The notes under the pieces were generated by a model. That model made no database searches. It was not told where the DNA came from and saw only the letters and a list, made by a program, of their open reading frames with translations. Below, in pieces: positions 1 to 56,292 of a stretch of DNA of 64,000 bases. How positions within the stretch are numbered: the stretch's first letter is position 1; every line of letters begins with the position of its first letter. This stretch comes from a virus. The stretch lies in the IMG/VR virus record IMGVR_UViG_3300026484_000236, positions 1 through 64,000 of that record. The stretch is one strand, 5' to 3'. The position numbers were made by a program, and so were the translations under genes.

Positions 1-180
1 CAGCTTGTGCTGGAGCAGCTGGCATACTTGGAGCAGCTTGTGCTGGAGCAGCTGGCATACTTGGAGCAGCTTGTGCTGGAGCAGCTGGCATACTTGGAGC
101 AGCTTGTGCTGGAGCAGCTGGCATACTTGGAGCAGCTGGCATACTTGGAGCAGCTTGTGCTGGCATACTTGGAGCAGCCA
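1..180 (-). repeat. tandem repeat encoding Ala/Pro/Met/Gln-rich tail
   Basis: A unit of about 33 bp encoding AAPSMPAAPAQ is repeated, with shorter 18-bp AAPSMP variants mixed in, running off the left edge. The copies are almost identical in DNA, so the array probably expanded recently by slippage or unequal recombination. It forms the C-terminal tail of the ssDNA-binding protein described next. Confidence 0.9.
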
Positions 181-936: not shown

Positions 937-2007
937 CTATAATAATCCTTTTAATATATCATTAATTATATCTAAATCTAGATAACTTAAACGCACTAAC
1001 AATATATTATTTTTAATGGCATACTTTGTTTTTATATTATCTTTTAATCGTCTTAATTTAAATTCTTTCTCGCCACCAAAACACTTTATTGGTTTAAAAT
1101 GCTGTTCTCCATCATACTCTATCAACAGATTATAATCTGGTAAATAAAAATCAAATGGAAGTGTATTTTTATATTTACAATCTTTAAAACGATATTCGGA
1201 AAAGAAAACTATATTATTTTCTTTTAAAAAATTTAATATTTTTCTTTCCCCTTTTGATTGAGAACATATTGGGCAACCTGCTCCAGATTTATGATTACTT
1301 GGTAATTGCCAAAAACTACCATGTACCGGACAAATAATTTCCATTTTAGTATCAACATTTACAAAAGTTTCTTCGATGTATTTAAATTTATTAAAATGCG
1401 CCTTATTGAAATCATCTATATGTTCGTAAATTGATTTTCTAACGCACTCCGGACAACCAGAAGCCTGACGATTAATATGGTTAATAGCAATTTGGAAAAA
1501 ACTCCCATGCTTTGGACAGATAATTTCAACTTTTGACATACTATTTATATATTCTACCTTAGTATAATTATATTTTAAACCATGTTTTAATTTAGCTTTT
1601 TCAATCCATTCGGTTTTTGATAATTTTTTAGTTCCGCCGCATCTAGGGCAACCACTTTTTAAATGACTATTTGGAGTTTGGAAAAAACTACCATGTTTAT
1701 CAATCCTGCAAATAATTTCAATTTCTTTCATGGAACCTTTATAATTCATTTTTGAATAATCGTATTTATTTTTATGAATTTTATTAAAGTTATCTATAAT
1801 TTCAAAAGTGGTTTTAATCCGTCCGGAACATCTGGGACACCCGGAACCATTTAAATGCATATTTGGCCGCTGCCAAAAACTACCATGTACTGGACAAATA
1901 ATTTCCATTTTAGTACGACGGTTAATATATACCGATTTAGAATAATCATAATTTGGATGAATTTTTTTACATCTAGTTATAACTTCTTCTTGGGATAATT
2001 TACGCAT
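937..2007 (-). CDS. homing-endonuclease-like protein: four zinc-ribbon modules plus Vsr/EDxHD-like nuclease domain
   Basis: 356 residues. Four successive modules of about 65 residues each carry the pattern Y-[DN]-Y-[ST]-K ... [IV]-E-I-I-C-P-x-H-G-S-F-x-Q ... H ... G-C-P-x-C, which should bind zinc and probably DNA. The C-terminal 100 residues form a nuclease domain with FDFYLPDYNLLIEYDGEQH, matching the Asp/Glu and Gln-His pattern of Vsr-like (EDxHD) nucleases of free-standing phage homing endonucleases. It is the member with most modules among five related genes here (13820, 47657, 50112, 63155). It sits between the ssDNA-binding and DpdA-like genes, an accessory position. The start at 2007 follows AAGGAAATAAT. 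Confidence 0.75.
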   Translation of the reverse strand: MRKLSQEEVITRCKKIHPNYDYSKSVYINRRTKMEIICPVHGSFWQRPNMHLNGSGCPRCSGRIKTTFEIIDNFNKIHKNKYDYSKMNYKGSMKEIEIICRIDKHGSFFQTPNSHLKSGCPRCGGTKKLSKTEWIEKAKLKHGLKYNYTKVEYINSMSKVEIICPKHGSFFQIAINHINRQASGCPECVRKSIYEHIDDFNKAHFNKFKYIEETFVNVDTKMEIICPVHGSFWQLPSNHKSGAGCPICSQSKGERKILNFLKENNIVFFSEYRFKDCKYKNTLPFDFYLPDYNLLIEYDGEQHFKPIKCFGGEKEFKLRRLKDNIKTKYAIKNNILLVRLSYLDLDIINDILKGLL

Positions 2008-2039
2008 ATTATTTCCTTATGGAAATAATATCTAATTAA

Positions 2040-3284
2040 CTATTTATAATAATCTTCAATTAAAGCATGTACTTCTTGATGGTACTCTTCAAAAGTTCCA
2101 TCTTCATAATGCTTTAATCCTTTTTTAGCTAATCTAAAATTATTTACTAATTCTTGAGCTAACCGACCTTGTTTAAAAATAGGATTGTATAATTGTAAAT
2201 CTTGTATTGTCCAATCTAAAATACTTCGATCTTGAATTTTATCCATATTATCATCCCGGAATTTATTAGCAAATGCTAATGTACTTTCAACCCCTTGACA
2301 AACTATTTCTACAAAGTCCGGATTAGAAACTTTTCCAGTTTTTTTCAAAGTTTCTAATGCTTCTTCTATATTATAATCAACTTTTTTTAATGAAACGTTG
2401 TTTTCTAACATAATTGCTAAATGATCTATATCTCTAGCCATTTCGAATTCATTATCATTTAAGGCATTTCTATATATTAATGGAAGCTTTGCCTGTATCG
2501 GACTAAATCTTAAGATTTCGCTCGAATCCATTGTAATTTCAAAACCTACTATTTCTTCTAAAATTACAGCCGTAATAATAGCTAATCTAGAACTTTGTCC
2601 CAACATATGTACATGTTTAATTACACCATCTTTTCCAAGATATTTCGCATAACCCATTAACCAGAATAACATTGGAGTAAAATGATTAAATTTGGCATTT
2701 GTCTCTTTTTTAAGACCTACTAAACCTCCAAAAGAATATCTTGAATAAATATCAAATACTTTATTATCTTCCATAATCTTTTTCCAAATTTCTAATGTTT
2801 CCGGAAATCTACTCTGAACAATAAATAATTGTTTATCTCTAAGTTTTGGAAATTTTTCAAATATTTTTAAACTAGATTCAATACTATGTTTATTATATTT
2901 AAAAATTTCATCTTTTGATAAATTTTTATTAAGAACGTCTAATGAAAATATCAAAGTTTCAATATTTTCATTTTCAAAATTGTTATGAAATTTCTTTAGA
3001 AGAAAGTGATAGGTATCTATATATTCCCGAAGTCTATTTTTAGAAATATACCCCATAAGAATTTGGAAACCACCACTATCTAACAATAATGTTTTCAAAT
3101 TTGGATCAGTGATTTCATTAAAATTTTTAAAAAGTTTATCCATCTGTCGATAAACTTGATGAATACTCCAACCACGGGAAGTGGTTGGTTCCGCAATACT
3201 AATTAAAGCGGCGTTAAAGTGATTAATAATAATATTTTTTACTTCGGAAACTGGACTTAGTCCTGTTACTGGTATATACTGCAT
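2040..3284 (-). CDS. dpdA: DpdA-like DNA 7-deazaguanine transglycosylase (TGT superfamily)
   Basis: 414 residues, read as a tRNA-guanine transglycosylase superfamily protein of the phage DpdA type, which exchanges guanine in DNA for a 7-deazaguanine base. Visible family motifs are DSGGFQ at 69-74, FSLDV at 113-117, YSFGGLVG at 183-190 (the substrate-recognition GG loop), HVHMLG at 224-229 and a TMDSSE segment whose Asp253 is the candidate nucleophile. The zinc-binding C-terminal site of bacterial TGT is not evident, as in DpdA proteins. The same window holds QueE (11266-12111) and Gat-QueC (43461-44933), which supply the base. An RNA-directed TGT cannot be excluded by eye, but the phage context favours DNA. 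Confidence 0.75.
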   Translation of the reverse strand: MQYIPVTGLSPVSEVKNIIINHFNAALISIAEPTTSRGWSIHQVYRQMDKLFKNFNEITDPNLKTLLLDSGGFQILMGYISKNRLREYIDTYHFLLKKFHNNFENENIETLIFSLDVLNKNLSKDEIFKYNKHSIESSLKIFEKFPKLRDKQLFIVQSRFPETLEIWKKIMEDNKVFDIYSRYSFGGLVGLKKETNAKFNHFTPMLFWLMGYAKYLGKDGVIKHVHMLGQSSRLAIITAVILEEIVGFEITMDSSEILRFSPIQAKLPLIYRNALNDNEFEMARDIDHLAIMLENNVSLKKVDYNIEEALETLKKTGKVSNPDFVEIVCQGVESTLAFANKFRDDNMDKIQDRSILDWTIQDLQLYNPIFKQGRLAQELVNNFRLAKKGLKHYEDGTFEEYHQEVHALIEDYYK

Positions 3285-3286
3285 AT

Positions 3287-3622
3287 TTATCCCTCTATTA
3301 AATTAGGTGTTCCGGCATATCTATTAATAGTATCTGCTAAACGTTGTCTCGTACTAACAATAGAAAGTTGATTTTTTAATAAATCAATTCTATGTTTAGC
3401 TAAATTCATTTCAAGAACTTCATTATTAAAATTTTCATCTGTTGATCTAAGGGCAAGTACTTGTTTCTCCTGTGATGTTCTAGATTCGGTATCCATTTTA
3501 TCAGCGATGTAACTATCTACTTTATGCGATAATTCCAAATGTTTTTCCATTTGTGTCAGGAGGTCTATTTCAATAGTCTCAAGTTTTGCAAAGTCTTTTT
3601 GCAGTTGTTCTAAAATTTCCAT
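3287..3622 (-). CDS. small coiled-coil protein, unknown function
   Basis: 111 residues, almost wholly helical and rich in Leu, Glu, Gln and Lys, with heptad-like spacing over residues 1-95, so probably a coiled coil. Start at 3622 follows AAGGAATTATT. Its stop lies three bases before the DpdA-like start, so the two are probably co-translated. I do not recognise a family; a small structural or scaffold protein is possible. Confidence 0.6.
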   Translation of the reverse strand: MEILEQLQKDFAKLETIEIDLLTQMEKHLELSHKVDSYIADKMDTESRTSQEKQVLALRSTDENFNNEVLEMNLAKHRIDLLKNQLSIVSTRQRLADTINRYAGTPNLIEG

Positions 3623-3631
3623 AATAATTCC

Positions 3632-4069
3632 TTATAAATTAATTTGTGAAAGCAAATCTAATTGCTTAATCATATTTGAATAAAAAGCTATTCTACCTTT
3701 TAAAAGACCTAAGACCAATTTTTCATCTTCGGATAAAGTATCTGATCTTAAACTATATTCATGAAGAGTTACTAAATAACTTTGATAAATTTTTTTAATT
3801 TCCTCTACCTGATTTGGAACTTGAAATGTTTTTGTATTTTTCCCATGAAATTCGAAAGGTACTTTTAGAATAGTGTTTTCTAAAAGTACCAGTGCGTCAA
3901 TATTAAAATTATTATCGATTTCGTTTCTTTCATTAAGTTCTTCATCGTTAAGTTCTTCTTCTTTAAATGTTTTTTCCGGTGGAATAATTTTTAAAATAAT
4001 CATTTCCTCATGAACTAACGTTTTATTATATCTTAAAAAAGTATCTTTATCTAATGCTACTTCTACCAT
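3632..4069 (-). CDS. unknown protein, 145 aa
   Basis: Start at 4069 follows AAAGGAGATTT. The protein is mixed alpha/beta with an acidic centre (EEELNDEELNERNE) and a helical C-terminal half. No motif is recognised. It follows the E2-like gene and an 91-residue gene in the same run, so it may belong to the same module as the E1/E2-like pair. Confidence 0.6.
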   Translation of the reverse strand: MVEVALDKDTFLRYNKTLVHEEMIILKIIPPEKTFKEEELNDEELNERNEIDNNFNIDALVLLENTILKVPFEFHGKNTKTFQVPNQVEEIKKIYQSYLVTLHEYSLRSDTLSEDEKLVLGLLKGRIAFYSNMIKQLDLLSQINL

Positions 4070-4078
4070 AAATCTCCT

Positions 4079-4354
4079 TTAATTTAAAATTAAATTAATG
4101 TTTAAATCATTTAAACATTCTTTTAATGTAGTAGTTAAATTACCAAAATCCAAATTATGTAATAAATCATTATTCGTTTTAAGAATATTGTTTATATCAT
4201 ATTTTTTATCTAATATATTTAATTTATTAAATATATCATTCCATACCTTCATTAGTAAAACGGTATTTCGAATAACTTTTTTATCAATAATGAGATTACT
4301 ATTATGAATTACTACGCCTTCTGCAACTGCTGTTGGAATATTACCATTCTCCAT
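4079..4354 (-). CDS. unknown small protein, 91 aa
   Basis: An upstream in-frame Met exists at 4432 but lies inside the preceding gene without a ribosome binding site. The ATG at 4354 (MENGNIPTAVAEG) follows AGGAGAATCAA and is preferred. The gene overlaps the end of the E2-like gene by 14 bases, suggesting coupled translation. The sequence is helical and Asn/Leu-rich with no known motif. Confidence 0.6.
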   Translation of the reverse strand: MENGNIPTAVAEGVVIHNSNLIIDKKVIRNTVLLMKVWNDIFNKLNILDKKYDINNILKTNNDLLHNLDFGNLTTTLKECLNDLNINLILN

Positions 4355-5480
4355 TTGATTCTCCTGTTGAAGTTGATTCAGTTTCTTGACTTTCAGCGGC
4401 TTCTTCTTTAGTAGGAACTTTATAAAAATCACATGCTATTTTTTTAGCGGTTGTTGCCATACTAATCCATTTTTTATTATTGTTTGTCAAAATACCATCA
4501 AACCACATACTACTCAAGTAAACTCTATTTAAAGTTAACCAACCACTAGCACGTTCTTTTGGAAGACTTCCTGTACAAATTTTACCAGCACCATCTCCCA
4601 TAATATAATCGGAGCCATGTCTATGATCTATATTACCAGAAATCATTATTCCCGTATTATAACCAACAGAATTACTTCGGGTTGGATTCTTTAAAAGAAT
4701 CATTCCGTAATATGGAGTAGCTATACTATCTACAATCATTTGAAGAGGTACCATTAAAGCTTTTGGAATAGTTGAGCTTACAACATCCTCTTTAAATTGT
4801 AATGGAGCAAATTGATCAATTTGCTCCAACGTGCTTAAAAATTCAAGTTCTGTAAAATATGTATCTAAATTTTGATTTAGATTTCTCTGTACTGTTTCGG
4901 TATTGATAAAATATTTTGATTGTGAAATATAAGAAACCCAAGATTTTTCATAGTTTATATTATACCCCTTATCAACAGTGGTAGCATCTATTTCACTCGA
5001 ATTCATAGAATCGTAATTATATTCGTAGATAATAATAGTTCCTTTTTCGGGAATTTTAATTTGTCCAAGTTTAATCGCTAATGCGGTTAAGGGATGCAAT
5101 GGATTAATTAAATACTGGGTGCGAGAATCTGATTTAATAAGCACTCCATAAATTTCTGGAACATTATGAACATTTTCTAAAAATGCCATAATATCGAAAT
5201 TTTTTGATAAATCATACTTTATCGATTTAATTTGAGATTTTAATTTATCTCTTAATTTATTTTTACTTGAATGAGAACTTACCGAAGAAGTTACAGAACC
5301 ATCATATCTAAAAATGGCATCGTTATCTCGTAAAATATCGTCTGAACTTAATGGGAAATAAAGATTTCCATCGTTATCTCCATAGGCATTATCAGATTCC
5401 TCAACTATTTGAGTTTCCGATTCGATAATATCTTTTACTTCTTCTTTAATTGCTAAATGAAATACGCTAATTGCTTTCAT
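4341..5480 (-). CDS. candidate E2-like (Prok-E2/PRTRC-B type) protein next to E1-like gene
   Basis: 379 residues. The C-terminal third has the segment HRHGSDYIMGDGAGKICTGS (286-305) followed by LPKERASGWLTLNRVYLSSMW, which resembles the G-[KR]-[IV]-C-x-G core and following helix of bacterial E2-like proteins found beside ThiF-type E1 proteins (the PRTRC-B/Prok-E2 families); Cys302 would be the thiol carrier. The N-terminal half is a separate alpha/beta region. The tail from about 355 is a Ser/Thr/Glu-rich linker ending in GEW, like the EPDW end of its E1-like neighbour at 5589-6647. The match is weak by eye, so treat E2 identity as a hypothesis; the neighbouring E1-like gene is the main support. 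Confidence 0.4.
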   Translation of the reverse strand: MKAISVFHLAIKEEVKDIIESETQIVEESDNAYGDNDGNLYFPLSSDDILRDNDAIFRYDGSVTSSVSSHSSKNKLRDKLKSQIKSIKYDLSKNFDIMAFLENVHNVPEIYGVLIKSDSRTQYLINPLHPLTALAIKLGQIKIPEKGTIIIYEYNYDSMNSSEIDATTVDKGYNINYEKSWVSYISQSKYFINTETVQRNLNQNLDTYFTELEFLSTLEQIDQFAPLQFKEDVVSSTIPKALMVPLQMIVDSIATPYYGMILLKNPTRSNSVGYNTGIMISGNIDHRHGSDYIMGDGAGKICTGSLPKERASGWLTLNRVYLSSMWFDGILTNNNKKWISMATTAKKIACDFYKVPTKEEAAESQETESTSTGESNGEW

Positions 5481-5528
5481 ATTTTTCCTTTTTTATTTAA
5501 TATTTTTTTTATTTTTATTTTTATTTTA

Positions 5529-5560
5529 AGTTATATTAAGACTTCGGTCTTAATATAACT
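5529..5560. terminator. 14-bp hairpin with TTCG loop between E1-like and E2-like genes
   Basis: A perfect 14-bp stem closes on a cTTCGg tetraloop in the plus-strand sense and is followed there by five T, the form of an intrinsic terminator for plus-strand transcripts. For the minus-strand genes around it, the loop is CGAA and no T-run follows, so it would be an RNA stability or processing structure there. Confidence 0.55.
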
Positions 5561-5588
5561 TTTTCTTTATTTTTATTTTTAATACGGT

Positions 5589-6647
5589 TTACCAATCTGG
5601 TTCCGTATTACTTCTTTCAACATTTTCTGAGGTTTCCTCGGTGGACTCTTCCGGATATAAGGAATACACTTCACCATAATCAACTCTAAATAAACTTTCA
5701 CTTTGTATATGAGTTGGTTTTGGTAAATTCTTTTTACCTTGTATTGGAATTTCGTTAAAGATTTCTAACATTTTAATAGTACCTACGGCAAGATTAGCTA
5801 GAAGCACTGGAACATCGATACTACCATAGCTTTCAAAAGTTAACTCTGTATTTACTAATGGTTGATAGAAAATTTCTAATTCATTGTTCGCATGCCCTAA
5901 GAAATAAAAGGGAGCGTTATTCAAAAGAACACGAGCTTCGAAATTTGGAGCACCAATAAATACAAATCCATCTTTTACTAATTGTTTTACTTCTTTTTCA
6001 TCTTCTAGATATCTTTTAAAGAGACCCATCTTTTTAGTAAGTTGAAACTCTTCTTTAATAAGTCTAATCTTTGGAAGGGATCCATCATCATTACAATGAA
6101 TATTTAGAAACGAATCTAGAATAACTGGTTTACTAATTCTAAGAATATTTGTAAGACTAATACTATCTTTTTCAAAAATTATAATTTCTTCGAAAATTGG
6201 ATCGTTATACGAACTTATGAAAGCAAGAAGATAAGTATTCCATAAAAAGTTAATCATTGCACCACCATAACCAACTACACATATTTTAAGATTTTTCTGA
6301 GCAATTGAATCTAGTAATTCGTGTACCTTGGCTTTTCCCTCTGGAGTTGTTGGATCGTATCCAATAATATCAGTACAATATTGTTTTATAGTATCATTAA
6401 AATAAATTGTTTTGCTTTTATTACCATTATAAGAAATTGGAAAAGTATTTGTAAGACTTGGGTTAAGAATAAGAAGATTAGGATTCATATATGTCGTAAA
6501 TCTTTTAAGTAATCTAAAATTACTTTTACCTAATTTACTAATTACGTCATTATCCAACGCATGTTTAATAATGCTTGAATCTGCATAACGGTGTCTAATT
6601 TCTTCTTGGATTTTTTCCATTACATTTACTGTAGTATTGTTTGCCAT
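5589..6647 (-). CDS. E1/ThiF-like adenylating enzyme family protein
   Basis: 352 residues. Residues 120-250 match the Rossmann core of the ThiF/MoeB/E1 superfamily: LKICVVGYGGAMINF (nucleotide loop at 126-130), a second strand ending IIIFEKDSISLTNILR (158-170, equivalent to D-x-V-x-x-x-N-L-x-R with Arg170), Lys193, and FVFIGAPNFEARVLLNN (229-244, equivalent to the D-N-x-x-A-R helix). The family adenylates the C-terminus of ubiquitin-like or peptide substrates. No CxxC zinc pair and no clear catalytic cysteine are visible, as in PRTRC-type ThiF proteins. The N-terminal 115 residues are extra. The C-terminus is a Glu/Ser/Thr linker ending EPDW. Upstream lies the tandem-repeat protein, downstream the E2-like protein. 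Confidence 0.65.
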   Translation of the reverse strand: MANNTTVNVMEKIQEEIRHRYADSSIIKHALDNDVISKLGKSNFRLLKRFTTYMNPNLLILNPSLTNTFPISYNGNKSKTIYFNDTIKQYCTDIIGYDPTTPEGKAKVHELLDSIAQKNLKICVVGYGGAMINFLWNTYLLAFISSYNDPIFEEIIIFEKDSISLTNILRISKPVILDSFLNIHCNDDGSLPKIRLIKEEFQLTKKMGLFKRYLEDEKEVKQLVKDGFVFIGAPNFEARVLLNNAPFYFLGHANNELEIFYQPLVNTELTFESYGSIDVPVLLANLAVGTIKMLEIFNEIPIQGKKNLPKPTHIQSESLFRVDYGEVYSLYPEESTEETSENVERSNTEPDW

Positions 6648-6693
6648 TTAATTGCCTTTTTTATTTAAGTTATTTTTTTATTTATTTTGTAAA

Positions 6694-6721
6694 AACTATC
6701 AATAGTTAACTATTGATAGTT
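6694..6721. terminator. palindromic hairpin AACTATCAATAG-TTAA
   Basis: A perfect 28-base palindrome between the repeat-protein gene and the E1-like gene. It belongs to a family of ATAGTTAACTAT palindromes that recur at 893-919, 28234-28262 and in both copies of the long inverted repeat. A 3'-end structure of the repeat-protein transcript is likely. Confidence 0.5.
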
Positions 6722-6740
6722 AACTATCTCCAGTTGACTT

Positions 6741-7481
6741 TTATTTACCTGATTTAGCAGTTGCTTGAATACTAGCTGTATCGGCAGTACTAATTGAAAT
6801 ACCAGAATCAGTATTACTAGTACCAGAATCAGATGATGTTCCAGATGTTCCAGATGTACTTGTAGCACTTCCTGAACTTTGAACTGCTTCTTGAAGTAAA
6901 GCATCTAAAGAAGATGCTCCTGATTTAGCAGTTGCTTGAATACTAGCTGTATCGGCAGTACTAATTGAAATACCAGAATCAGTATTACTAGTACCAGAAT
7001 CAGATGATGTTCCAGATGTTCCAGATGTACTTGTAGCACTTCCTGAACTTTGAACTGCTTCTTGAAGTAAAGCATCTAAAGAAGATGCTCCTGATTTAGC
7101 AGTTGCTTGAATACTAGTTGTATCGGCAGTACTAATTGAAATACCAGAATCAGTATTACTAGTACCAGAATCAGATGATGTTCCAGATGTACTTGTAGCA
7201 CTTCCTGAACTTTGAACTGCTTCTTGAAGTAAAGCATCTAAAGAAGATGCTCCTGATTTAGCAGTTGCTTGAATACTAGCTGTATCGGCAGTACTAATTG
7301 AAATACCAGAATCAGTATTACTAGTACCAGAATCAGATGATGTTCCAGATGTTCCAGATGTACTTGTAGCACTTCCTGAACTTTGAACTGCTTCTTGAAG
7401 TAAAGCATCTAAAGAGGTTGCTCCTGATTTAGCCATAGTTAAGATATTAGTTGTATTAGTATTTGAGATAATTGTTGCCAT
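6741..7481 (-). CDS. Ser/Thr/Gly-rich tandem-repeat protein with polyubiquitin-like repeat layout
   Basis: 246 residues: a 20-residue leader ending MAKSG, then four repeats of 57, 54, 57 and 57 residues, then one extra Lys. Each repeat begins A-[ST]-SLDALLQEAVQ, a short amphipathic helix, continues as a Ser/Thr/Gly/Asp linker, and ends SIQATAKSG. Lysine occurs only in the AKSG junctions and at the last residue. Head-to-tail identical units ending in Gly with one extra residue on the last unit is the layout of polyubiquitin precursors, and the next genes are E1-like and E2-like. The units are not beta-grasp domains, so a disordered modifier, a multi-core peptide precursor or a repetitive structural protein are all possible. 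Start follows AAGGAAGTCCAA. Confidence 0.7.
   Translation of the reverse strand: MATIISNTNTTNILTMAKSGATSLDALLQEAVQSSGSATSTSGTSGTSSDSGTSNTDSGISISTADTASIQATAKSGASSLDALLQEAVQSSGSATSTSGTSSDSGTSNTDSGISISTADTTSIQATAKSGASSLDALLQEAVQSSGSATSTSGTSGTSSDSGTSNTDSGISISTADTASIQATAKSGASSLDALLQEAVQSSGSATSTSGTSGTSSDSGTSNTDSGISISTADTASIQATAKSGK
6747..7421 (-). repeat. four direct repeats of 171/162 bp
   Basis: Units occupy 7421-7251, 7250-7089, 7088-6918 and 6917-6747. They are almost identical in DNA, differing by a 9-base deletion in the second unit and a few single-base changes (for example Ala to Thr near the second junction). Such DNA identity means either very recent duplication or continuing homogenisation. 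Confidence 0.95.
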
Positions 7482-7530
7482 TTGGACTTCCTTTTTTATT
7501 TAAGTTTTTTATTTAAATTTTTTTTATTTT

Positions 7531-7544
7531 TTGGCTTCGGCCAA
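7531..7544. other. GGC-TTCG-GCC hairpin
   Basis: Another TTGGCTTCGGCCAA stem, here in the leader of the repeat-protein gene just after the CTGTCGTTA element. The A-rich stretch after it in the minus sense leads directly to the ribosome binding site. Confidence 0.5.
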
Positions 7545-7554
7545 GACATTAATT

Positions 7555-7593
7555 TAACGACAGGAATAAATAGATCGTTAGATCTATTTATTC
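7555..7593 (-). terminator. 13-bp hairpin followed by CCTGTCGTTA
   Basis: On the minus strand a 13-bp stem (GAATAAATAGATC, loop 4) overlaps the stop region of the gene at 7584-8117 and is followed at once by CTGTCGTTA. The same hairpin-plus-C(C/T)TGTCGTTA arrangement occurs at 40989-41025, 47568-47625 and, on the plus strand, at 60882-60921. It is probably a transcript end or RNA processing signal of the phage. Confidence 0.6.
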
Positions 7594-8117
7594 TTAAGAT
7601 TTTTAATAGCTTCTAATGCTTTTTTACGCATATCTTTTTCAGTATCATTCGATTCGAAATCAACAGAACCTTTGGAAATACCTATAAGAAAATCTTCATC
7701 TACTATTTTGAAAGTATTTTCTAAGCTCATCCATATAGGATTAGTATCCATTCTAGTTTTACCAATTAGCATTTTACCTTCTTTACCATTTAACGAAAAA
7801 CAGTAAATTGATTCAGTTCCATCTGATAACATTTGCTTTAGAGGTAAGTCTCTTAAAGTTAATTCTCGGACATTAATTAAAACACCCTTTATTTGAATTT
7901 TTTTATTTTCCGAAGTTTCCGAAAAAATATCAGTAGCCTTTAATAACATTTTTATAATCTTATCGATATGTTTTGTTTTTATTTTAGCACTTTTACCCGG
8001 TTTATTTACTAAGTGTTGTACTTCATCTTCATTTACTTCGATAATAGTATATACTTTTTTATCATTTGCCCAATTTAAACCACTTTTAATTTCTGGTAAA
8101 TCTTCTACTTTTCTCAT
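7584..8117 (-). CDS. unknown protein, 177 aa
   Basis: Start at 8117 follows AAAGGAAAATAAA. Mixed alpha/beta with a Lys-rich centre (GKSAKIKTKHIDKIIK) and a charged helical C-terminus (EKDMRKKALEAIKNLKNK). No domain is recognised. It is the first gene upstream of the tandem-repeat protein, from which it is separated by a terminator-like element. Confidence 0.6.
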   Translation of the reverse strand: MRKVEDLPEIKSGLNWANDKKVYTIIEVNEDEVQHLVNKPGKSAKIKTKHIDKIIKMLLKATDIFSETSENKKIQIKGVLINVRELTLRDLPLKQMLSDGTESIYCFSLNGKEGKMLIGKTRMDTNPIWMSLENTFKIVDEDFLIGISKGSVDFESNDTEKDMRKKALEAIKNLKNK

Positions 8118-8128
8118 TTTATTTTCCT

Positions 8129-9061
8129 TTAATAAGCCGTTGTATTATATTTGAAATGGCTTTCGCCATAAACATTTCGATATTGAGAATACATATTAAA
8201 TAAAGTTTTATCTAATTCATAATCTGTAAGTCCATTTCCAAACCGTTTAAGATTTTTTTTTAACTTTTGTAAAGTTAAATAAGTAAAACATCTTAAAACT
8301 TTTTCATCTTCTGCTGATAATATTTCTTTATTAAGAAAATATTTATCAAATTGAATTGGAAGTTTTAATACTCTGGCATGTTTTAAAATACTAGGTATTC
8401 TATAATCAATTGGAATAAAACATTTATCGATTTCCAATAACTTGGATCTATCTAATCCAATATTTTCAGTAATTAAATTCCAAGCAAGTATTTCACGTTT
8501 TTGAAATTTATCCTGTCCATAACTACTAAAATATCTTTTTAAAAATTTATAGTATCTTCTATATATGCTTAAATAATTTAACTTATAATCAGCCGATGAT
8601 CTATTTACAAATTTTAATTGACCAAGTTCAAATTCGATTTTGTATAAATCTTTTTCGAAATCAGTAGTATCAATAATAAATAATTTATTTACATCCTCGA
8701 TATACCAATCAATCATTTTAAAATTTTTTAATAATAAAACCGTTTTTAGTTTTTTTAAAAACAGTTTTCTATCAGTTAGTAATAAATCAATTTCTGGATA
8801 TATTCTTGATATTAAAAGATCATTTAATTCTTTACTTCTAGCATAATTAATACCATTCTTTGGCCAAAAATTATAATTAAACATATTAAGAATACTATTA
8901 TATAAAATTTCATGTTTTATATTATTGTGAATATTTACTGGTTCATTTTTAAAAGCATAGATACCTCTTAAAAAATCCTCAGGAAATTCGTTTTGAAATT
9001 TTACATTGTATTTTTTTTGATATTCTTTTACTTGATTTTTAGAATACGTTAATAAAGACAT
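8129..9061 (-). CDS. possible queuosine 5'-phosphate N-glycosylase (Qng1/DUF2419-like)
   Basis: 310 residues. Two segments recall the DUF2419 queuosine-salvage family: ILNMFNYNFWP near residue 55-65, where the family has a L-D-A-L-N-F-x-F-W-P strand, and IDKCFIPIDYRIPSILKHARVL, like the family's F-x-D-Y-R-x-P-Q-x-L active-site segment followed by a helix of the same length. The family releases the 7-deazaguanine base queuine from queuosine nucleotides. In a phage that carries DpdA, QueE and Gat-QueC such an enzyme could recycle bases for DNA modification. The match is from memory over short stretches, so another helical phage protein remains possible. Confidence 0.4.
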   Translation of the reverse strand: MSLLTYSKNQVKEYQKKYNVKFQNEFPEDFLRGIYAFKNEPVNIHNNIKHEILYNSILNMFNYNFWPKNGINYARSKELNDLLISRIYPEIDLLLTDRKLFLKKLKTVLLLKNFKMIDWYIEDVNKLFIIDTTDFEKDLYKIEFELGQLKFVNRSSADYKLNYLSIYRRYYKFLKRYFSSYGQDKFQKREILAWNLITENIGLDRSKLLEIDKCFIPIDYRIPSILKHARVLKLPIQFDKYFLNKEILSAEDEKVLRCFTYLTLQKLKKNLKRFGNGLTDYELDKTLFNMYSQYRNVYGESHFKYNTTAY

Positions 9062-9444
9062 TTTTCCAAATCCACCTTTTTAAAAGCTTTTATTTTAAAA
9101 ATAATTTTTCTCGGATCCATATAAAAACCATATATTTCCAATCCTCTTATTTTCAAAAACTCTTTTATTTGGTTTTCAATATGTTCTCTTAGAACTAGAG
9201 TTTCCGTAGTAACACTAGCACTGTGAAAATATTTTGTACCATTTTTAATATGAAAAGTTTCTTGACCACCATCCATATTAATTTTGATACGGTTATCGTC
9301 TTGCCAAATATAAATAAGGGATTTTGAATAAATATCCAAATCATGGTATAATCGTTTAACTAAATTAATTATTATATTATGCTTTCTTATTTCTTCTTTA
9401 GACGCTTCATGTTCATTTTCTTCGAGAATATTTAATAAATTCAT
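9049..9444 (-). CDS. unknown protein, 131 aa
   Basis: Start at 9444 follows AAAGGATCGAA. The gene overlaps the next one (8129-9061) by 13 bases, so translation is probably coupled. Helical N-terminus, then a beta-rich part. I recognise no family. Confidence 0.6.
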   Translation of the reverse strand: MNLLNILEENEHEASKEEIRKHNIIINLVKRLYHDLDIYSKSLIYIWQDDNRIKINMDGGQETFHIKNGTKYFHSASVTTETLVLREHIENQIKEFLKIRGLEIYGFYMDPRKIIFKIKAFKKVDLEKCLY

Positions 9445-9453
9445 TTCGATCCT

Positions 9454-9879
9454 TTAAAATAAATCGTCGGTAGTAATTCCTAAATCAATAACTATACCGT
9501 CGTCAGTAGTTGGACGAGATGTATCTAAATCAGTTAAAATACCTTCTATTGCCATTGGTCCAGTATTTTCTGAAGTTCTTCGTGTTGTTTTTCTATCGCC
9601 TTTAAATTTATCTAGATATTGATCAAAATCAACTACAAATTTATTTTGTAATTCTATAGCTTCTTGTCTGTCTTCCGCTGTTTTTACTGGAACTAAAATC
9701 ATTTCATAACCAAGTTTATCTATGATTTTATCTAAGCCCTTTTCTCCAATTTTATCTTGTTTCCCAGATAAGAAATATCTAATACCTAAATAAGATAATG
9801 GTAATTCCATATCTTTTAAAAAGTTTGTAATATTAGGAACCTTTGTTAATAATAGATCCTTAATTTTTGTATGTAACAT
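9454..9879 (-). CDS. small protein with possible HTH and acidic aromatic tail
   Basis: A Met 14 codons upstream (9921) exists, but the ATG at 9879 (MLHTKIKDLLL) follows AAAGGAAAAATAAA and is preferred, giving 141 residues. Residues 20-60 (LSYLGIRYFLSGKQ ... LDKIIDKLGYEMILVPV) look like the helix-turn-helix and following strand seen in small phage regulators. The C-terminus is acidic and ends TTDDLF, like the protein-docking tails of ssDNA-binding proteins. A DNA-binding regulator is a reasonable guess. Confidence 0.45.
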   Translation of the reverse strand: MLHTKIKDLLLTKVPNITNFLKDMELPLSYLGIRYFLSGKQDKIGEKGLDKIIDKLGYEMILVPVKTAEDRQEAIELQNKFVVDFDQYLDKFKGDRKTTRRTSENTGPMAIEGILTDLDTSRPTTDDGIVIDLGITTDDLF

Positions 9880-9903
9880 TTTATTTTTCCTTTTATATTT
9901 AAA

Positions 9904-9925
9904 GTTCTCGGCTTCGGCCAAGAAC
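9904..9925. other. hairpin with TTCG loop before 9454-9879
   Basis: GTTCTCGGCTTCGGCCAAGAA forms a stem with one C-A mismatch, just upstream of the ribosome binding site of the 141-residue gene. It is one of the recurring cUUCGg (plus sense) hairpins in this part of the window. Confidence 0.5.
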
Positions 9926-9929
9926 TGAA

Positions 9930-11255
9930 TTATACCAATGTGGTATTTTCATCTTTATTCCAATTTAAAACATAAACTGATCCAGAACAAACGTGATTTG
10001 AAGTATTTTGTACTTCTCCTGGTTCTAAAGCAATATCTGGTTCATAATTGAATTCGATTTCGGCAGCAACCGTAATCGAATTACCTTGTAAATTTCCAAT
10101 ATTTATTTTTCTACCAAGTTTAAAAATATCTACTGGCGCTTTATCAATATATATTCTATATATTTTTGGATTTAATTTCAAAAATTTTAAGATATTTTCT
10201 CGAATCGCTTGTACATCATTAATAGATAAATTTCCTTCATCCTCGTAATAATTAGATATTGGTGAAGTAGCATACGATACACTTGGTAAAGCATCGCTTT
10301 TATCTAGTATTAATCCAGTATTTATTAAAGGAGGTAATTCATCAACATTATTAGTAAATAAATTTTTATATCTGTAAACAGATTGCAATTTATCCTTAAT
10401 AAATTTAACACTATAATAAGGTTCTATAAATTGTGCGTTGGATATTTTATAAGAAGTATCTTTTAAAAAATTACTAACGTAATTATTTACATAACTTATA
10501 TCATCTATATCCAATAAATCTGCTAATATTAATTCCGTTATTGTACCAGTAGTAACAGATGGAGTATTAACAGTATCCGAAACAGATGAAAAAAATTCAT
10601 CAAAACCAAATATAATTGGATCTAGGGACACTTTATTTACATATACTAATTCAAAATAATTATCTAAATTTGAGGTATTTGGATTAAATATATAATTATT
10701 AAATGTAGATATGCTTTTATTGGATATACTATTACTGATACCTAAACTATTTCCATATTTTTTTATGGCCAATTCATTCATACTATGAAAAATATCCATA
10801 TTATAAAAATTAGGTTTATTAAGTTTAGAAATACTATAGAAATTATTATCATTTTTTAATCCTGAAGTCAAATAGGAATCTAATAATAAAACCATAGCAT
10901 TGTCACCAGTACCAGTTTGACTAACCGCTGATATTTCTTCGGCTTTCGTTATTTTATAAATATTTTTATAAATACTTTTTCCATTTATAACTAAAGTTAT
11001 TTCTAACAATACCAACATATTCGATAAATTAAAAAATTCCTGTTCGTTGATATCAGTAAGTATTAATCTATTAATTGGAATAAAATTAGTATCGTAACAA
11101 TTTTTAGCAACTCGAAATGATTGAATTCTAGCACCAGAAAAAATACTACAGTTTGTTAAATTTACTTTATTAACTGTAGGTAAGGTACTATCTGGTTTTA
11201 TTTCAATATTTAAACTATAATTGGAATAATTTATAGATTTTGGAGCATCTGCCAT
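9930..11255 (-). CDS. putative virion or baseplate-hub-like protein
   Basis: 441 residues, beta-rich, Asn/Ser/Ile-rich, with no membrane segments. The N-terminal domain has strands such as RLILTDINEQEFFNLSNMLV and LLEITLVINGKSIYKNIYKI; the last 100 residues include YRIYIDKAPVDIFKLGRKINI and SITVAAEIEFNY. This layout recalls baseplate hub (gp27-like) and related tail proteins of myophages, but no specific motif proves it. It is isolated among replication and metabolism genes. Start follows AAAGGATAGAGA. Confidence 0.3.
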   Translation of the reverse strand: MADAPKSINYSNYSLNIEIKPDSTLPTVNKVNLTNCSIFSGARIQSFRVAKNCYDTNFIPINRLILTDINEQEFFNLSNMLVLLEITLVINGKSIYKNIYKITKAEEISAVSQTGTGDNAMVLLLDSYLTSGLKNDNNFYSISKLNKPNFYNMDIFHSMNELAIKKYGNSLGISNSISNKSISTFNNYIFNPNTSNLDNYFELVYVNKVSLDPIIFGFDEFFSSVSDTVNTPSVTTGTITELILADLLDIDDISYVNNYVSNFLKDTSYKISNAQFIEPYYSVKFIKDKLQSVYRYKNLFTNNVDELPPLINTGLILDKSDALPSVSYATSPISNYYEDEGNLSINDVQAIRENILKFLKLNPKIYRIYIDKAPVDIFKLGRKINIGNLQGNSITVAAEIEFNYEPDIALEPGEVQNTSNHVCSGSVYVLNWNKDENTTLV

Positions 11256-11265
11256 TCTCTATCCT

Positions 11266-12111
11266 TTAATCCATTTCGATATCTATATGTAATCTTGGTG
11301 AATATTTAATACCTAGTTTAAGCGCCTCTCTGGAAGCAGTATGTTGAGAATTTTTCCAAAGTTCTATATCTTTACCATGTGGTTCATCAGGCGTCCAAGG
11401 CATTAGCATAATATGTTTTCTACCAAGATTAAATCCTTTTAATCTGTTAATAAAAATAAGATTATCTAGATTTTTTTTATCTGCTTCCCACACAAATTTA
11501 AAATACAAATGACTTTTATTAAAATAATTCATACAATTATCAATAACTTTAGTATACATATCCCAAACTTGATCTTGGGATAATTCCCCACCATAACAAG
11601 CTTCCGCATCTAATTTTGGACTAATAGTTAAGGTTGGTAAAGTTCCACATTGTCTTTCAATAATATTAAAAGTTTTAATAGTTTCCATTACAATTTTTTT
11701 ATCTTGTAAAAGATTACCATTACTTTCAATACCAATGAAATCAAAATGAATATCATTATCAGCTAACCAATCGATAATTTTATTAAGACTTGCTATAAAA
11801 TGTAATGGTTCACCACCAGTAATAGTAAGTCTTTTAATTTCTTTATCTTTAATCTCGGCCTTAATCTCTTTACCAAGTTTTTCTAATTCTTGTCCTTCAT
11901 CGGAATACCAAGAATATTTAGAATCACACCAAGAGCATTTTGCTGAATAACAACCATTAAGTCTAATATAAAGACTTGGTTCGCCAATACTGTTTCCTTC
12001 TCCTTCGAGAGAAACAAACCATTCACTAATAGTTGGCATATTGCTTAATGTTCCAAAATGTAATTTTTTTTTATCATTCGCTTCTTTTTCATGTTCTAAT
12101 GAATATCTCAT
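11266..12111 (-). CDS. queE: 7-carboxy-7-deazaguanine synthase, radical SAM enzyme
   Basis: 281 residues. The start of the QueE fold is plain: SEWFVSLEGEGNSIGEP then LNGC with a cluster motif Cys54, Cys59, Cys62 (spacing C-x4-C-x2-C, one residue longer than the usual C-x3-C-x2-C). LTITGGEPLH is the S-adenosylmethionine-binding GGE segment, and the C-terminus SPRLHIDIEMD matches the family end. QueE makes the 7-deazaguanine ring from carboxytetrahydropterin, feeding QueC. With DpdA (2040-3284) and Gat-QueC (43461-44933) it forms a phage DNA-modification pathway. FolE and QueD are not in this window. A promoter-like motif lies just upstream. Confidence 0.88.
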   Translation of the reverse strand: MRYSLEHEKEANDKKKLHFGTLSNMPTISEWFVSLEGEGNSIGEPSLYIRLNGCYSAKCSWCDSKYSWYSDEGQELEKLGKEIKAEIKDKEIKRLTITGGEPLHFIASLNKIIDWLADNDIHFDFIGIESNGNLLQDKKIVMETIKTFNIIERQCGTLPTLTISPKLDAEACYGGELSQDQVWDMYTKVIDNCMNYFNKSHLYFKFVWEADKKNLDNLIFINRLKGFNLGRKHIMLMPWTPDEPHGKDIELWKNSQHTASREALKLGIKYSPRLHIDIEMD

Positions 12112-13819: not shown

Positions 13820-14548
13820 TTAAACCTTGAAATAAGCTTCTTTGTTTAAAACTTCTTCAATGTCTTCAAAATATCCTATTCGAATAATTCTTATATCGTT
13901 TTTAATACAATACTCAGTTTTAATTTTATCACGTTCTTGAGTCTTTAAGAATCCTTCTAAACCTCCAAAATAAGAATCACTTTCATAATGTTGTCTACCA
14001 TCGTACTCAATGACAGTATTTAAATCCTCTAAATAAAAATCAAATCTATAATTATCAAAGAGTTTAACTTCTTGAGAGTACTTAATATTCTTGGATTCTA
14101 GAAATTCTCTAACTTTTCTTTCTCCTTTAGATTCAGAGCATTTTGGGCACCCAGAACCATTTATATGAGCAAAAACCGTTTGTAAAAATTCTCCATGTAT
14201 TGGACAAATAATTTTTAATTTTGTTTTTTGAGTACTACTATAATTATTATCAAACCAGATTTTAGAAAAATCTGGATAAGTGTATTTAGTAGTTAAACGA
14301 TTTTTTAAATCTTCGAAAGTTAATTTTGCATTTTTAGCACAATATCTACATCCCTTTCCAGCAACGGCGCTTCCAATTTTTTGAATAACTATACCATGTA
14401 TTGGACATAAAATTATCATTTTAGTACTAAGATTTTTATAATATTGATCATACCAATACTTATTAATACAATAATAATATTTATCTAATTTTTGAAAATT
14501 GTTTATACAATTTTTAATTTTTTCTAAGGAATATTTTCGTGAATCCAT
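13820..14548 (-). CDS. homing-endonuclease-like protein: two zinc-ribbon modules plus Vsr/EDxHD-like nuclease domain
   Basis: 242 residues. Two modules with I-I-C-P-x-H-G and paired C-x2-C ends (CRYCAK, GCPKCSESKGE) precede a nuclease domain with FDFYLEDLNTVIEYDGRQH and KTEYCIKNDIRIIRI. It begins one base after the stop of the DNA polymerase exonuclease fragment (14550-15632), whose last codons carry its ribosome binding site. Homing endonucleases next to split polymerase genes are a known pattern, which supports that role. Related to genes at 937, 47657, 50112 and 63155. Confidence 0.75.
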   Translation of the reverse strand: MDSRKYSLEKIKNCINNFQKLDKYYYCINKYWYDQYYKNLSTKMIILCPIHGIVIQKIGSAVAGKGCRYCAKNAKLTFEDLKNRLTTKYTYPDFSKIWFDNNYSSTQKTKLKIICPIHGEFLQTVFAHINGSGCPKCSESKGERKVREFLESKNIKYSQEVKLFDNYRFDFYLEDLNTVIEYDGRQHYESDSYFGGLEGFLKTQERDKIKTEYCIKNDIRIIRIGYFEDIEEVLNKEAYFKV

Positions 14549-43460: not shown

Positions 43461-44933
43461 TCAATCCTTTATATTTTGATGTATCGCTTCTTTTCGAAGT
43501 AAGCAACTACCACATTCCCCACACGCTTCCCCATTAACTGGATAATAACAACTAAAAGAAATATTAAGTAATTCGCGAAGGGTATCTTCTCCAAATTCTT
43601 TTTTAAATTCTTTTAACATATTAATCTTAGTGCGATTAATATATGGACTAAGTAATTTAACATTATTGAATTGTTTACCACCGTACTTTAACATATTCTC
43701 AGTACTTTCTAACCAAGCGATATTATTATCACCATATACTTGACCATCACTAAGATTTAACCCAAGGCCAACCATAATTAAATAATCTTTTGGATACTCT
43801 TCCAAATAATCAAATTCTTTCTGTGATTGAGCTACTAAAATTTGAGCCATTAAGGTATTTCTAAATGGTACATAAGCTAAAGTATCTTCGGTTTCGGCTT
43901 TATCTCCAACAGCATCTTTATCTAATAATTTAGATTTTTCTCCAGCTACTTCAGAAATATTATTTATAATTCCAGAAATATTTTCTCTATATAAATCAAT
44001 ATTTAAACTTCTAAATATTTTTTTATCTTTTAAATAATCTAAAAAATTATTAGCTGAAGTTATTTCTTCGTTTTCAGCGTTACATCCGTACTCAAAATAA
44101 GTTAACTCGGTTTCTATTTGGTAATCATTATCATCCATAATGACACGATTTAATTTCTTTTCCAAATCAGAAAATATCTTATACGCGTTTAAAACGGAAT
44201 CCATTCCTCCACTAAAAGCTATCTTAAGACTAATGGTCTTGTTCTTTAAAGCTTTCTTTTTTGGAACCATAGCTAAATTTCTACCACTCTTTGTAAAAAT
44301 ATTAGTAGTGCTATAAGTTTTAATACCGTTATGATACCCAATATATTTACCCATACCTTTATCGACCATTTTTACTTCTAAAGTATTCTGATCTATTTCA
44401 ATGTAACTATATAAGCCTTCTAATTTTTTAAAATCTTTTTTTTTAAGAAAAGAAAAAATTTCGGTATCTACTGTAATAATTTGACCAATTTCTTTAACTA
44501 TTTCAGTATCGTTCGAAATAGTTCCATGTACGAAAAATATTTTATCTAAGGTATTATTAAAATATGGGCTTATATTTACATCACCTGCTTCCATTTCTGG
44601 ACGCTGTCGACTAAATAATCCGAAAACAATTTTATGAGGATTAATAATACGATACAAACTATTAAAATTTTTCAAAATATCTTTTTTAATTTCCTTAAAT
44701 GTACTGGCACTAAAATCGTAAGAAACATTTTGTGATCTAGAAGAGTTAAATTTATCAACTCCCTGAATTATTATTAAAACACTATAACCCTCATCTGACC
44801 CAATATTACCACCTTTAATACTTAAAAGTTTTTCAAACTCATCCAAATTATTTAAATAATCATCTTCAAATTTGAATATTTGGGTACTATCGTTGAAAAG
44901 TTTAGTATATTCTTTTACTATAATTTGACACAT
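43461..44933 (-). CDS. Gat-QueC fusion: class II glutaminase-like domain plus 7-cyano-7-deazaguanine synthase domain
   Basis: 490 residues beginning Met-Cys-Gln, so Cys2 is the expected N-terminal nucleophile of a class II glutamine amidotransferase domain (about 1-225, with VHGTISNDTEIVKE like the N-G-E-I-x-N strand of asparagine synthetase). The QueC part follows: PP-loop SGGMDS at 241-246, VPFRNTLMAQIL, GLGLNLSDGQVYGDN, and the zinc cysteines Cys462, Cys471, Cys474, Cys477 in NGEACGECGSCLLRKEA. QueC makes preQ0; Gat-QueC fusions have been reported in phages whose DNA carries amide- or amidine-type 7-deazaguanines. It should act with QueE and DpdA. Start follows AAGGAAGTAAA. Confidence 0.85.
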   Translation of the reverse strand: MCQIIVKEYTKLFNDSTQIFKFEDDYLNNLDEFEKLLSIKGGNIGSDEGYSVLIIIQGVDKFNSSRSQNVSYDFSASTFKEIKKDILKNFNSLYRIINPHKIVFGLFSRQRPEMEAGDVNISPYFNNTLDKIFFVHGTISNDTEIVKEIGQIITVDTEIFSFLKKKDFKKLEGLYSYIEIDQNTLEVKMVDKGMGKYIGYHNGIKTYSTTNIFTKSGRNLAMVPKKKALKNKTISLKIAFSGGMDSVLNAYKIFSDLEKKLNRVIMDDNDYQIETELTYFEYGCNAENEEITSANNFLDYLKDKKIFRSLNIDLYRENISGIINNISEVAGEKSKLLDKDAVGDKAETEDTLAYVPFRNTLMAQILVAQSQKEFDYLEEYPKDYLIMVGLGLNLSDGQVYGDNNIAWLESTENMLKYGGKQFNNVKLLSPYINRTKINMLKEFKKEFGEDTLRELLNISFSCYYPVNGEACGECGSCLLRKEAIHQNIKD

Positions 44934-47656: not shown

Positions 47657-48355
47657 TTATTTTAAAGTACTCTTACTCAGAATTTTTTCTATTTTATTAA
47701 AATCTTTATATGAAATTCTAATAAGATTAATATTGTTTTTTTTACAATATATATCTTTCTCTTTATCTCTAAAACAGGTTTCTTTAAATCCCTTTTCACC
47801 ACCAAAATAATTTATTGGTTTAAAATGTTGGATACCATCGTACTCAATAACGGTATCCAAATCTTTTAAATAAAAATCAAAACGATATTTTTTAAATAAA
47901 TTATATTCTCTTAAATATTCTATATTATTTTCTTCTAAAAATTCTTTAATTCTTTCTTCCCCTTTGCTTTTTTTACCACAAATTGGACAACCATTCCCTT
48001 GTTTGTGATCATTTGGTTTTTGAAAAAAACTACCGTGTTCTGGACAAATAATTTCTACTTTTGTTTTATTATTTATGTAATTAACCTTACTGTAATCGTA
48101 TTTATTTCCATGAACATTTTTAAAATCTTTTATAATTTCCAATTGGGTTAAGGTATTATCTTTATAAAAACATTCCCGGCATCTCTTACCCATTTTATGA
48201 TATTTTGGATATACTAAAAAACTTCCATGTTCTGGACATATTATTTCTATCTTAGTATTATTATTAATATAATTAACTTTCGAATAGTCATATTTATCCC
48301 CATGAACTTCTTTAAACCAGTTTAAAACCTCTTCTAGTTTTAATTTTCTAGGCAC
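47657..48355 (-). CDS. homing-endonuclease-like protein: two zinc-ribbon modules plus Vsr/EDxHD-like nuclease domain
   Basis: 232 residues starting with GTG at 48355. Two modules with K-Y-D-Y-S-K-V-N-Y-I-N-N, E-I-I-C-P-E-H-G-S-F and C-x2-C ends are followed by FDFYLKDLDTVIEYDGIQHFKP and the Lys-rich C-terminus. It follows recJ directly, while a close relative (50112-50810) precedes recJ. The first module lacks one half of a C-x2-C pair variation (KRCRECF). Confidence 0.75.
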   Translation of the reverse strand: MPRKLKLEEVLNWFKEVHGDKYDYSKVNYINNNTKIEIICPEHGSFLVYPKYHKMGKRCRECFYKDNTLTQLEIIKDFKNVHGNKYDYSKVNYINNKTKVEIICPEHGSFFQKPNDHKQGNGCPICGKKSKGEERIKEFLEENNIEYLREYNLFKKYRFDFYLKDLDTVIEYDGIQHFKPINYFGGEKGFKETCFRDKEKDIYCKKNNINLIRISYKDFNKIEKILSKSTLK

Positions 48356-50115: not shown

Positions 50116-50810
50116 ATTTCTTCCTTTAGTATTTTTTCTATATTATTAAATTCCGTGTATGGAATTCGTATAAGTTTAATATTATTTTTTTTACAATATT
50201 CTGTTTTAATTTTATCACGTTCTTGTAATTTTTTAAATTCTTTTTCTCCACCAAAAAATTTTATAGGTTTATAATGTTGTTCTCCATCAAATTCTATTAA
50301 TATATTATGATCCGGTAAATAAAAATCAAATCTTAAAATTCCGTTTTTTTTACAATTTTTAAAAGTATATTCTGATAAAAAATTAAGAGTGTTATTTTTT
50401 AAAAATTTAGCTATTTTTATTTCCCCTTTTGAAGTATTACATATTGGGCAACCATAACCAAGACGAAAATAGTCAAAGGTTGTTCTAAAATCATCATGTA
50501 TTGGACATCCAATAATAATGGATGATCTAGAATTTTTATAATTTATTTTTGAATAATTATATTTATCTCCATATATTAATTCTAATTCTTTTATTATCTT
50601 TTCTAAAGGATTTCTTAATTTTTTATATTGGTATTTTTTACATCCATGTCCTTGTTTATGAGTATTTGGTTTCTGGAAAAAACTTCCATGTTCTGGACAA
50701 ATAATTTCTATCTTAGTCATAGTATTTTTATATTGAACTTTACTATAGTCGTATTTATCACCATGAACATTTTTAAAATCTTTTATATGTTCTGATACTG
50801 ACTTCTTCAT
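50112..50810 (-). CDS. homing-endonuclease-like protein: two zinc-ribbon modules plus Vsr/EDxHD-like nuclease domain
   Basis: 232 residues. The first module ends GHGCKKYQYK, so one of its two cysteine pairs is lost; the second ends GCPICNTSKGE. The nuclease core is FDFYLPDHNILIEFDGEQHYKP. Its end carries the ribosome binding site for recJ. Start at 50810 follows AGGAAAAAAAT. Confidence 0.75.
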   Translation of the reverse strand: MKKSVSEHIKDFKNVHGDKYDYSKVQYKNTMTKIEIICPEHGSFFQKPNTHKQGHGCKKYQYKKLRNPLEKIIKELELIYGDKYNYSKINYKNSRSSIIIGCPIHDDFRTTFDYFRLGYGCPICNTSKGEIKIAKFLKNNTLNFLSEYTFKNCKKNGILRFDFYLPDHNILIEFDGEQHYKPIKFFGGEKEFKKLQERDKIKTEYCKKNNIKLIRIPYTEFNNIEKILKEEI

Positions 50811-54302: not shown

Positions 54303-54650
54303 ATGAAAAAAATTGAAGATAGTTTAACATTTATGTTAAAAATGGCTAAAAAGGAAGATATTTTAGATTTAGATAAATATAATAATAAAAGTTTAGAAGA
54401 AGAATTAGAAATGGTTTTTGAATTAAATTATGGTATTGATTATATAGATAATAAAATTAATTCTAAAAAAGAAAAATATAAAGCTAAAAGAATATCATTT
54501 TCTAAATTACAAAAATATTCTCTAGAAAAGCCAAATTTAGTAAGTATTTCTTCACCTGATAGAAAGAGTTTAGAAACTCTTTCTAGAGAAAACATGTTAA
54601 TTGAATCAAGAAAACGTACAAAGGTTTTCCATGAAAATAAATATAAATAA
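54303..54650 (+). CDS. unknown basic protein, 115 aa
   Basis: Start follows AAAGGAAAATA. Helical and acidic in the first half, Lys/Arg-rich in the second (KKEKYKAKRISFSKLQKYSLEK). It overlaps the start of the next gene. Function unknown; likely part of the virion or polymerase operon. Confidence 0.55.
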   Translation: MKKIEDSLTFMLKMAKKEDILDLDKYNNKSLEEELEMVFELNYGIDYIDNKINSKKEKYKAKRISFSKLQKYSLEKPNLVSISSPDRKSLETLSRENMLIESRKRTKVFHENKYK

Positions 54651-56282: not shown

Positions 56283-56292
56283 GGAAAATAAT

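Follow-up and report, generated by a model that had tools for sequence, protein, structure and literature searches.

In bacteria, E1-E2 systems have been described in anti-phage defence and on plasmids. The PRTRC cassette (e.g., NC_007901.1) consists of an E1 protein of the ThiF type, the E2-like protein B, the JAB protein A, and the ubiquitin-like protein C; it corresponds to operon type 6d of Iyer (2006), while operons for polyubiquitin-like (polyUbl) proteins form type 6e (PMC1779556). Here, we analyzed a window of 64,000 nucleotides from the start of a virus record (IMGVR_UViG_3300026484_000236; 167,008 bp), in which three consecutive minus-strand genes encode a repeat protein, an E1-like protein, and an E2-like protein. 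A preliminary description of this DNA had proposed that the E1-E2 pair conjugates the repeat units to target proteins. Our comparisons indicate that the module is most likely a derived version of this known kind of system, with predicted catalysis and a predicted modifier. The record possesses its own multisubunit RNA polymerase, in keeping with the phage origin assumed for it; this enzyme is 21-26% identical to those of jumbo phages, to which it is distantly related. Coordinates, strand, and lengths of the three open reading frames (ORFs; 379, 352, and 246 amino acids) had all been given correctly. The features of the module are as follows:

4341-5480, minus strand: E2-like candidate, 379 amino acids, with the conserved Cys302 in (G)KICTGS
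5487-5500, minus strand: leader TTAAATAAAAAAGG, exact match upstream of the E2-like gene, ATG 6 nt further
5528-5561, no strand assigned: 15-bp hairpin between the E1-like and E2-like genes
5589-6647, minus strand: divergent E1/ThiF-type protein, 352 amino acids
6655-6668, minus strand: leader TTAAATAAAAAAGG, exact match upstream of the E1-like gene, ATG 7 nt further
6694-6736, no strand assigned: hairpin between the repeat and E1-like genes, found by folding plus repeat detection
6741-7481, minus strand: repeat protein, 246 amino acids, with tandem units of 54-57 amino acids, five AKSG motifs, and Lys as last residue
7490-7503, minus strand: leader TTAAATAAAAAAGG, exact match upstream of the repeat gene, ATG 8 nt further

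Relatives of the phage were sought through an alignment of its RNA polymerase, which yielded 54 related loci; the records behind 38 of these were searched for E1 and E2 genes. Exactly one, designated G004 (IMGVR_UViG_3300028534_000514, 281 kb; RNA polymerase 47% identical), carries both. Its E1 and E2 homologues, 36% and 27% identical in alignment, are encoded in the same order as in the window by overlapping genes. The E2 gene also overlaps the next gene, which encodes a protein of 502 amino acids containing HRHPGDFGFSATD, the sole JAMM-type pattern among the 292 ORFs of the two phages; it resembles the PRTRC-A motif HSHGRYPAFFSATDDADD. Neither hhalign nor hidden Markov model (HMM) searches supported this protein as a JAB protein, so that the call is one at the level of the motif. 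The G004 pair also lies near genes resembling topoisomerase subunits. Direct searches of viral contigs and phages for close relatives of the E1, of the E2, and of the neighbouring gene resembling those for tRNA-guanine transglycosylase (TGT) and DpdA gave no matches, nor did scans of genome contigs, and PDB profile searches returned nothing credible.

Profile comparisons identify the protein encoded at 5589-6647 as a divergent member of the E1/ThiF type. In hhalign comparisons it scored 37.4 against PRTRC ThiF proteins (maximum of 22.6 across 200 column shuffles), 31.1 against MoeB, ThiF, and TcdA (shuffled maximum 21.8), and 41.2 against a set of 18 E1 proteins (P 3.6e-5; shuffled maximum 23.4), which provides statistical support for the homology. 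When an E1 HMM was run over the 292 ORFs, the two E1-like proteins ranked first and second, with E-values of 0.008 and 0.019 that improved to 0.003 and 0.006 once more phage E1 proteins were included in the model. The Rossmann/E1 motif noted in the preliminary description, KICVVGYGG...IIIFEKDSISLTNILR, is present, and the nucleotide-binding half of the superfamily is recognizable as GYGGAM, in which the third Gly of GxGGxG is replaced by Met. The acidic-x-D, N, and R residues that follow this motif in the superfamily are represented by E159-K-D161, N167, and R170, which are invariant between the window phage and G004.

The protein encoded at 4341-5480 is probably E2-like, a prediction that we base mainly on its gene adjoining an E1 gene in two phages. 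It contains the expected GKICTGS core, and Cys302 is conserved (ICTGS in the window phage, VCTGS in G004) despite the low overall identity of the two proteins. This matches the [VI]CxGS cysteine motif of the E2/Prok-E2_D family (PRTRC-B), and the motif aligned with the VCxGS of PRTRC-B at a single-comparison hhalign P of 0.018 (0.018-0.023 across the comparisons made). In a shuffle test against PRTRC-B, the score of 23.7 lay above those of all 200 shuffles (maximum 22.7), and among the 292 ORFs it was this one that had the best score with a position-specific scoring matrix (PSSM) of the Cys motif. The preliminary reading of the pair is thus supported in part, by statistics for the E1-like partner, and by the conserved Cys motif and the adjacency to E1 for the E2-like partner. 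A UBC fold of the latter is putative: its AlphaFold model, from a two-sequence alignment, was poor (predicted local distance difference test, pLDDT, 34.5), and Foldseek was uninformative. The other AlphaFold models from two-sequence alignments were poor as well, and Foldseek matches to phosphoheptose isomerases and methyltransferases were disregarded.

The repeat protein is encoded by a tandem array (6748-7433) of about four copies of a 171-bp unit with 95% matches. Its five AKSG motifs are spaced 57, 54, 57, and 57 residues apart, and a single Lys follows the last of them. The polyubiquitin layout proposed for it holds for the arrangement, i.e., near-identical head-to-tail units with a short C-terminal tail, but not for the units themselves: they do not read as beta-grasp domains, being of low complexity, rich in Ser, Thr, and Gly, and without match to any ubiquitin-like family. 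The gene also occurs in two close relatives, G001 (108 residues at 84% identity) and the contig L099, both of which end inside the repeat and thereby conceal what follows. A core of 26 amino acids beginning at AKSG is nearly identical in these relatives, whereas the linkers differ. Between the window phage and G001, the core AKSGASSLDALLQEAVQSSGSATSTS differs solely by one T/S exchange in the first window copy, with three synonymous codon differences per core, and that of L099 deviates by one residue near the core end. Since the core is unchanged in the face of synonymous differences while the linkers vary, these data suggest that it is under selection.

Of four exact copies of TTAAATAAAAAAGG in the window, three stand immediately upstream of the repeat, E1-like, and E2-like genes. 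With one mismatch allowed, nine matches were observed versus 0.94 expected, and the leader was not found at 11 other inspected genes of the region 937-12111. The same leader precedes the repeat gene of G001 (L096). Because an identical leader is found on all three genes, with one other exact copy in the window, the genes look like a single co-expressed module. The shared leader supports a joint function and is the strongest direct evidence of joint action; it speaks for co-expression, not for a particular chemistry.

Using PRTRC proteins as queries, we found E1-E2 systems in large phages that can serve as a yardstick. Bacillus phage vB_BauM_KLEB27-3 carries an operon, gp194-gp199 (L097:648-6638; OM634661.1, about 167.6-173.6 kb), in which gp199 consists of four head-to-tail ubiquitin-like units of 57 amino acids ending in GVKG (Prok_Ub, E 5e-27; PRTRC_C, E 8.8e-17), gp196 is the E2 (Prok-E2_D, E 2.7e-4, below the cut-off), gp195 the JAB protein (PRTRC_A, E 3.1e-7, below the cut-off), and gp194 the E1 (ThiF, E 1.9e-12); a tblastn search with gp199 matched no further phage record. 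In Vibrio phage D69 (L102:301-4858), a protein that by our reading of the sequence has three ubiquitin-like domains, each ending in GTKG (HMM E 3.7e-5 for the whole protein), is followed by E2, JAB, and E1. Salmonella phage Arash (L100:1519-4539) possesses E2, JAB, and E1, two of them annotated as 'structural protein', and Acinetobacter phage ME3 (L101:1122-5259) an E1 and a JAB-type protein with a tRNA and other small genes between them. In Xanthomonas phage PhiXhv-12 (L091:1682-5558) we noted a protein of 140 amino acids ending in GG, one of 892 amino acids containing the motif GSLCLGS, and one of ThiF type (PF00899, E 4.8e-21), located beside DNA topoisomerase genes. KLEB27-3, D69, Arash, and ME3 thus carry recognizable systems of this kind, and in KLEB27-3 and D69 these include multi-ubiquitin proteins. 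Among open-access titles and abstracts on ubiquitin-like systems, none dealt with polyubiquitin systems encoded by phages, and KLEB27-3 by name yielded no paper.

Compared with these jumbo-phage operons, the window module is similar in layout and much diverged in its parts. It shares with them the setting in a large phage and the joint location of the E1 and E2 genes, and with KLEB27-3 and D69 an upstream protein of tandem repeats, whose units end in KG in those phages. In contrast, the jumbo-phage repeats are recognizable ubiquitin-like domains (Prok_Ub; four stretches in KLEB27-3), their operons contain a JAB gene, and their E1 proteins match E1 profiles. The likeness to the PRTRC cassette lies in the close proximity of the E1-like and E2-like genes, the VCxGS-type Cys motif, and, in G004, the gene with a JAMM motif that adjoins the pair. 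However, the window proteins match no PRTRC profile, the E1-like protein lacks the conserved cysteine of the SC motif, the proteins are longer (352 and 379 versus about 265 and 240 amino acids), and neither protein C nor protein A was found in the window record, which is possibly incomplete. Tandem modifier repeats beside an E1 are also found in the polyUbl operons of type 6e, although those repeats consist of ubiquitin-like domains, and the inactive component there is the E2-like protein (PMC1779556). With Cap2/Cap3 of the type II cyclic-oligonucleotide-based antiphage signalling system (CBASS), the module shares the logic of bacterial E1-E2 and JAB proteins, but its E1 and E2 are separate genes and no cyclase is seen beside them; the PADLOC models for CBASS and Bil-like E1-E2 proteins did not match the window proteins.

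Our favoured, and still tentative, interpretation is that the module descends from PRTRC-type machinery with which bacterial E1 and E2 proteins conjugate ubiquitin-like modifiers, and that it would act on a small C-terminal peptide, the best candidate being the repeat units. The E1-like protein would bind a nucleotide together with the C terminus of a small protein, for which an AKSG-ended unit of the repeat protein is the best local candidate, and would pass it, or simply offer it, to the E2-like protein at Cys302; this step would lead to attachment of the small protein to a target. The sequences themselves show the E1 homology, the adjacency of the E1 and E2 genes in two divergent phages, the invariance of Cys302, and the leader common to the three genes, whereas we infer the E2 fold, nucleotide use and the chemistry of activation, the repeat protein as the partner, and the target. 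That E1-E2 systems occur in phages is supported by the complete E2-JAB-E1 operons of jumbo phages, some with multi-ubiquitin proteins. A narrower version appears to us decidedly improbable: here the modifier would not be a beta-grasp ubiquitin but a peptide of about 57 amino acids, apparently without structure, which is produced head-to-tail as a polyprotein with AKSG at its end and handled by an E1-like/E2-like pair that lacks an E1 cysteine.

Several observations weigh against this interpretation. Pfam, NCBIfam, PHROGs, and PADLOC gave no match supporting an assignment of the window E1-like and E2-like proteins, and profile searches with the G004 homologues gave none either; the window E1-like protein matched neither PF00899 nor the NCBIfam ThiF models at an E-value of 1, and its G004 homologue did not match them. 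The E1 signal is limited to residues ~110-170, the C-terminal half alone not being significant. PF14460, TIGR03737, and a full-length E2 HMM failed to match the protein encoded at 4341-5480; against phage E2 proteins alone it scored barely better than shuffles (one of 80 above it), and its Cys-motif PSSM score was also reached by shuffled ORF sets and is not significant genome-wide. AlphaFold models were uninformative. The three-gene neighbourhood is conserved in part: the E1-E2 adjacency is kept in the distant relative G004, but the repeat gene was not found there and is conserved in the close relatives alone. No gene for a ubiquitin-like (Prok_Ub) or JAB/JAMM protein was found in the 167-kb record, incomplete as it may be. 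No E1 catalytic cysteine is conserved outside strand 1: the single cysteine of the G004 E1-like protein aligns with C123 in strand 1, the only one common to the two proteins. In one alignment, the position of the Mg-binding Asp130 of MoeB falls on Pro234, a Pro in both phages (GAPN/GAPT), while another alignment places it elsewhere, so that the Mg ligand may have been lost. Since no E1 cysteine is conserved and the Mg-binding Asp is not identifiable with confidence, the canonical E1 chemistry predicted for this protein is doubtful. The stronger claim that it is catalytically dead was dropped because the C-terminal alignment is too weak.

These features, together with the Met in place of the third Gly of GxGGxG and a YG at the position of the PRTRC SC motif (in one alignment), would suit a degenerate, non-catalytic E1/E2-derived pair that acts by binding, as a decoy or adaptor; for instance, it might sequester the modifier of a host defence system (type II CBASS or Bil), or its E1-E2 partner, with the repeat protein as multivalent bait. 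The retention of Cys302 across two E2-like proteins of 27% identity and of an apparent JAMM motif in G004 argues otherwise, and the active-site equivalences move with the alignment used; we regard this possibility as a serious one, if on the unlikely side. Alternatively, the E1-like protein might be real, the protein encoded at 4341-5480 something other than an E2, and the repeat protein unrelated (e.g., a structural or adhesive low-complexity protein), so that the genes would be mere neighbours with similar expression signals. Such an arrangement would suit an E2 match that spans only 11-18 residues around the Cys, a PSSM score attained in shuffled ORF sets, and a G004 genome lacking the repeat gene; an identical leader on exactly three consecutive genes and the conservation of the E1-E2 pair in G004 make it unlikely in our view. 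The option raised in the preliminary description, a multi-core precursor of a ribosomally synthesized and post-translationally modified peptide (RiPP) matured by a ThiF-like enzyme, is very improbable: the core is nearly invariant and the linkers variable in three phages, some peptides are matured by ThiF-like enzymes (PMC12250964), and the phage has a radical S-adenosylmethionine (SAM) gene cluster, but this lies ~100 kb away, nothing beside the repeat gene was recognized as an export, protease, or other RiPP gene, and no precursor family matched.

Other features of the phage deserve mention. The radical-SAM-type cluster comprises ~9 genes (L068:4465-16454; about 108.5-120.5 kb of the full virus record, G000). 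Queuosine-type genes at 8129-9061, 11266-12111, and 43461-44933 (Q-salvage-like, QueE-like radical SAM, and QueC) suggest a 7-deazaguanine metabolism. An N-terminal motif of the type M-x-L-E-I-N-K-x-x-L-L-E-E, which may be a signal for targeting or assembly, recurs in at least eight proteins that otherwise differ; three are encoded in the window (54601-55053, 56245-56532, and 60979-61872) and five elsewhere in G000. A family of related proteins with repeated zinc-finger-like modules (CP.HG.F...GCP.C), present in many copies in one genome, is represented at 937-2007, 13820-14548, 47657-48355, and 50112-50810, with several more members in L003. The record starts within a 33-bp tandem repeat (1-155, minus strand) coding for (APSMPAAPAQA)n, whose ORF runs off the window.

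Taken together, the jumbo-phage operons and the diverged version in this lineage make it testable whether infecting phages themselves tag virion or host proteins, and whether such a system can use a modifier that does not have the ubiquitin fold.

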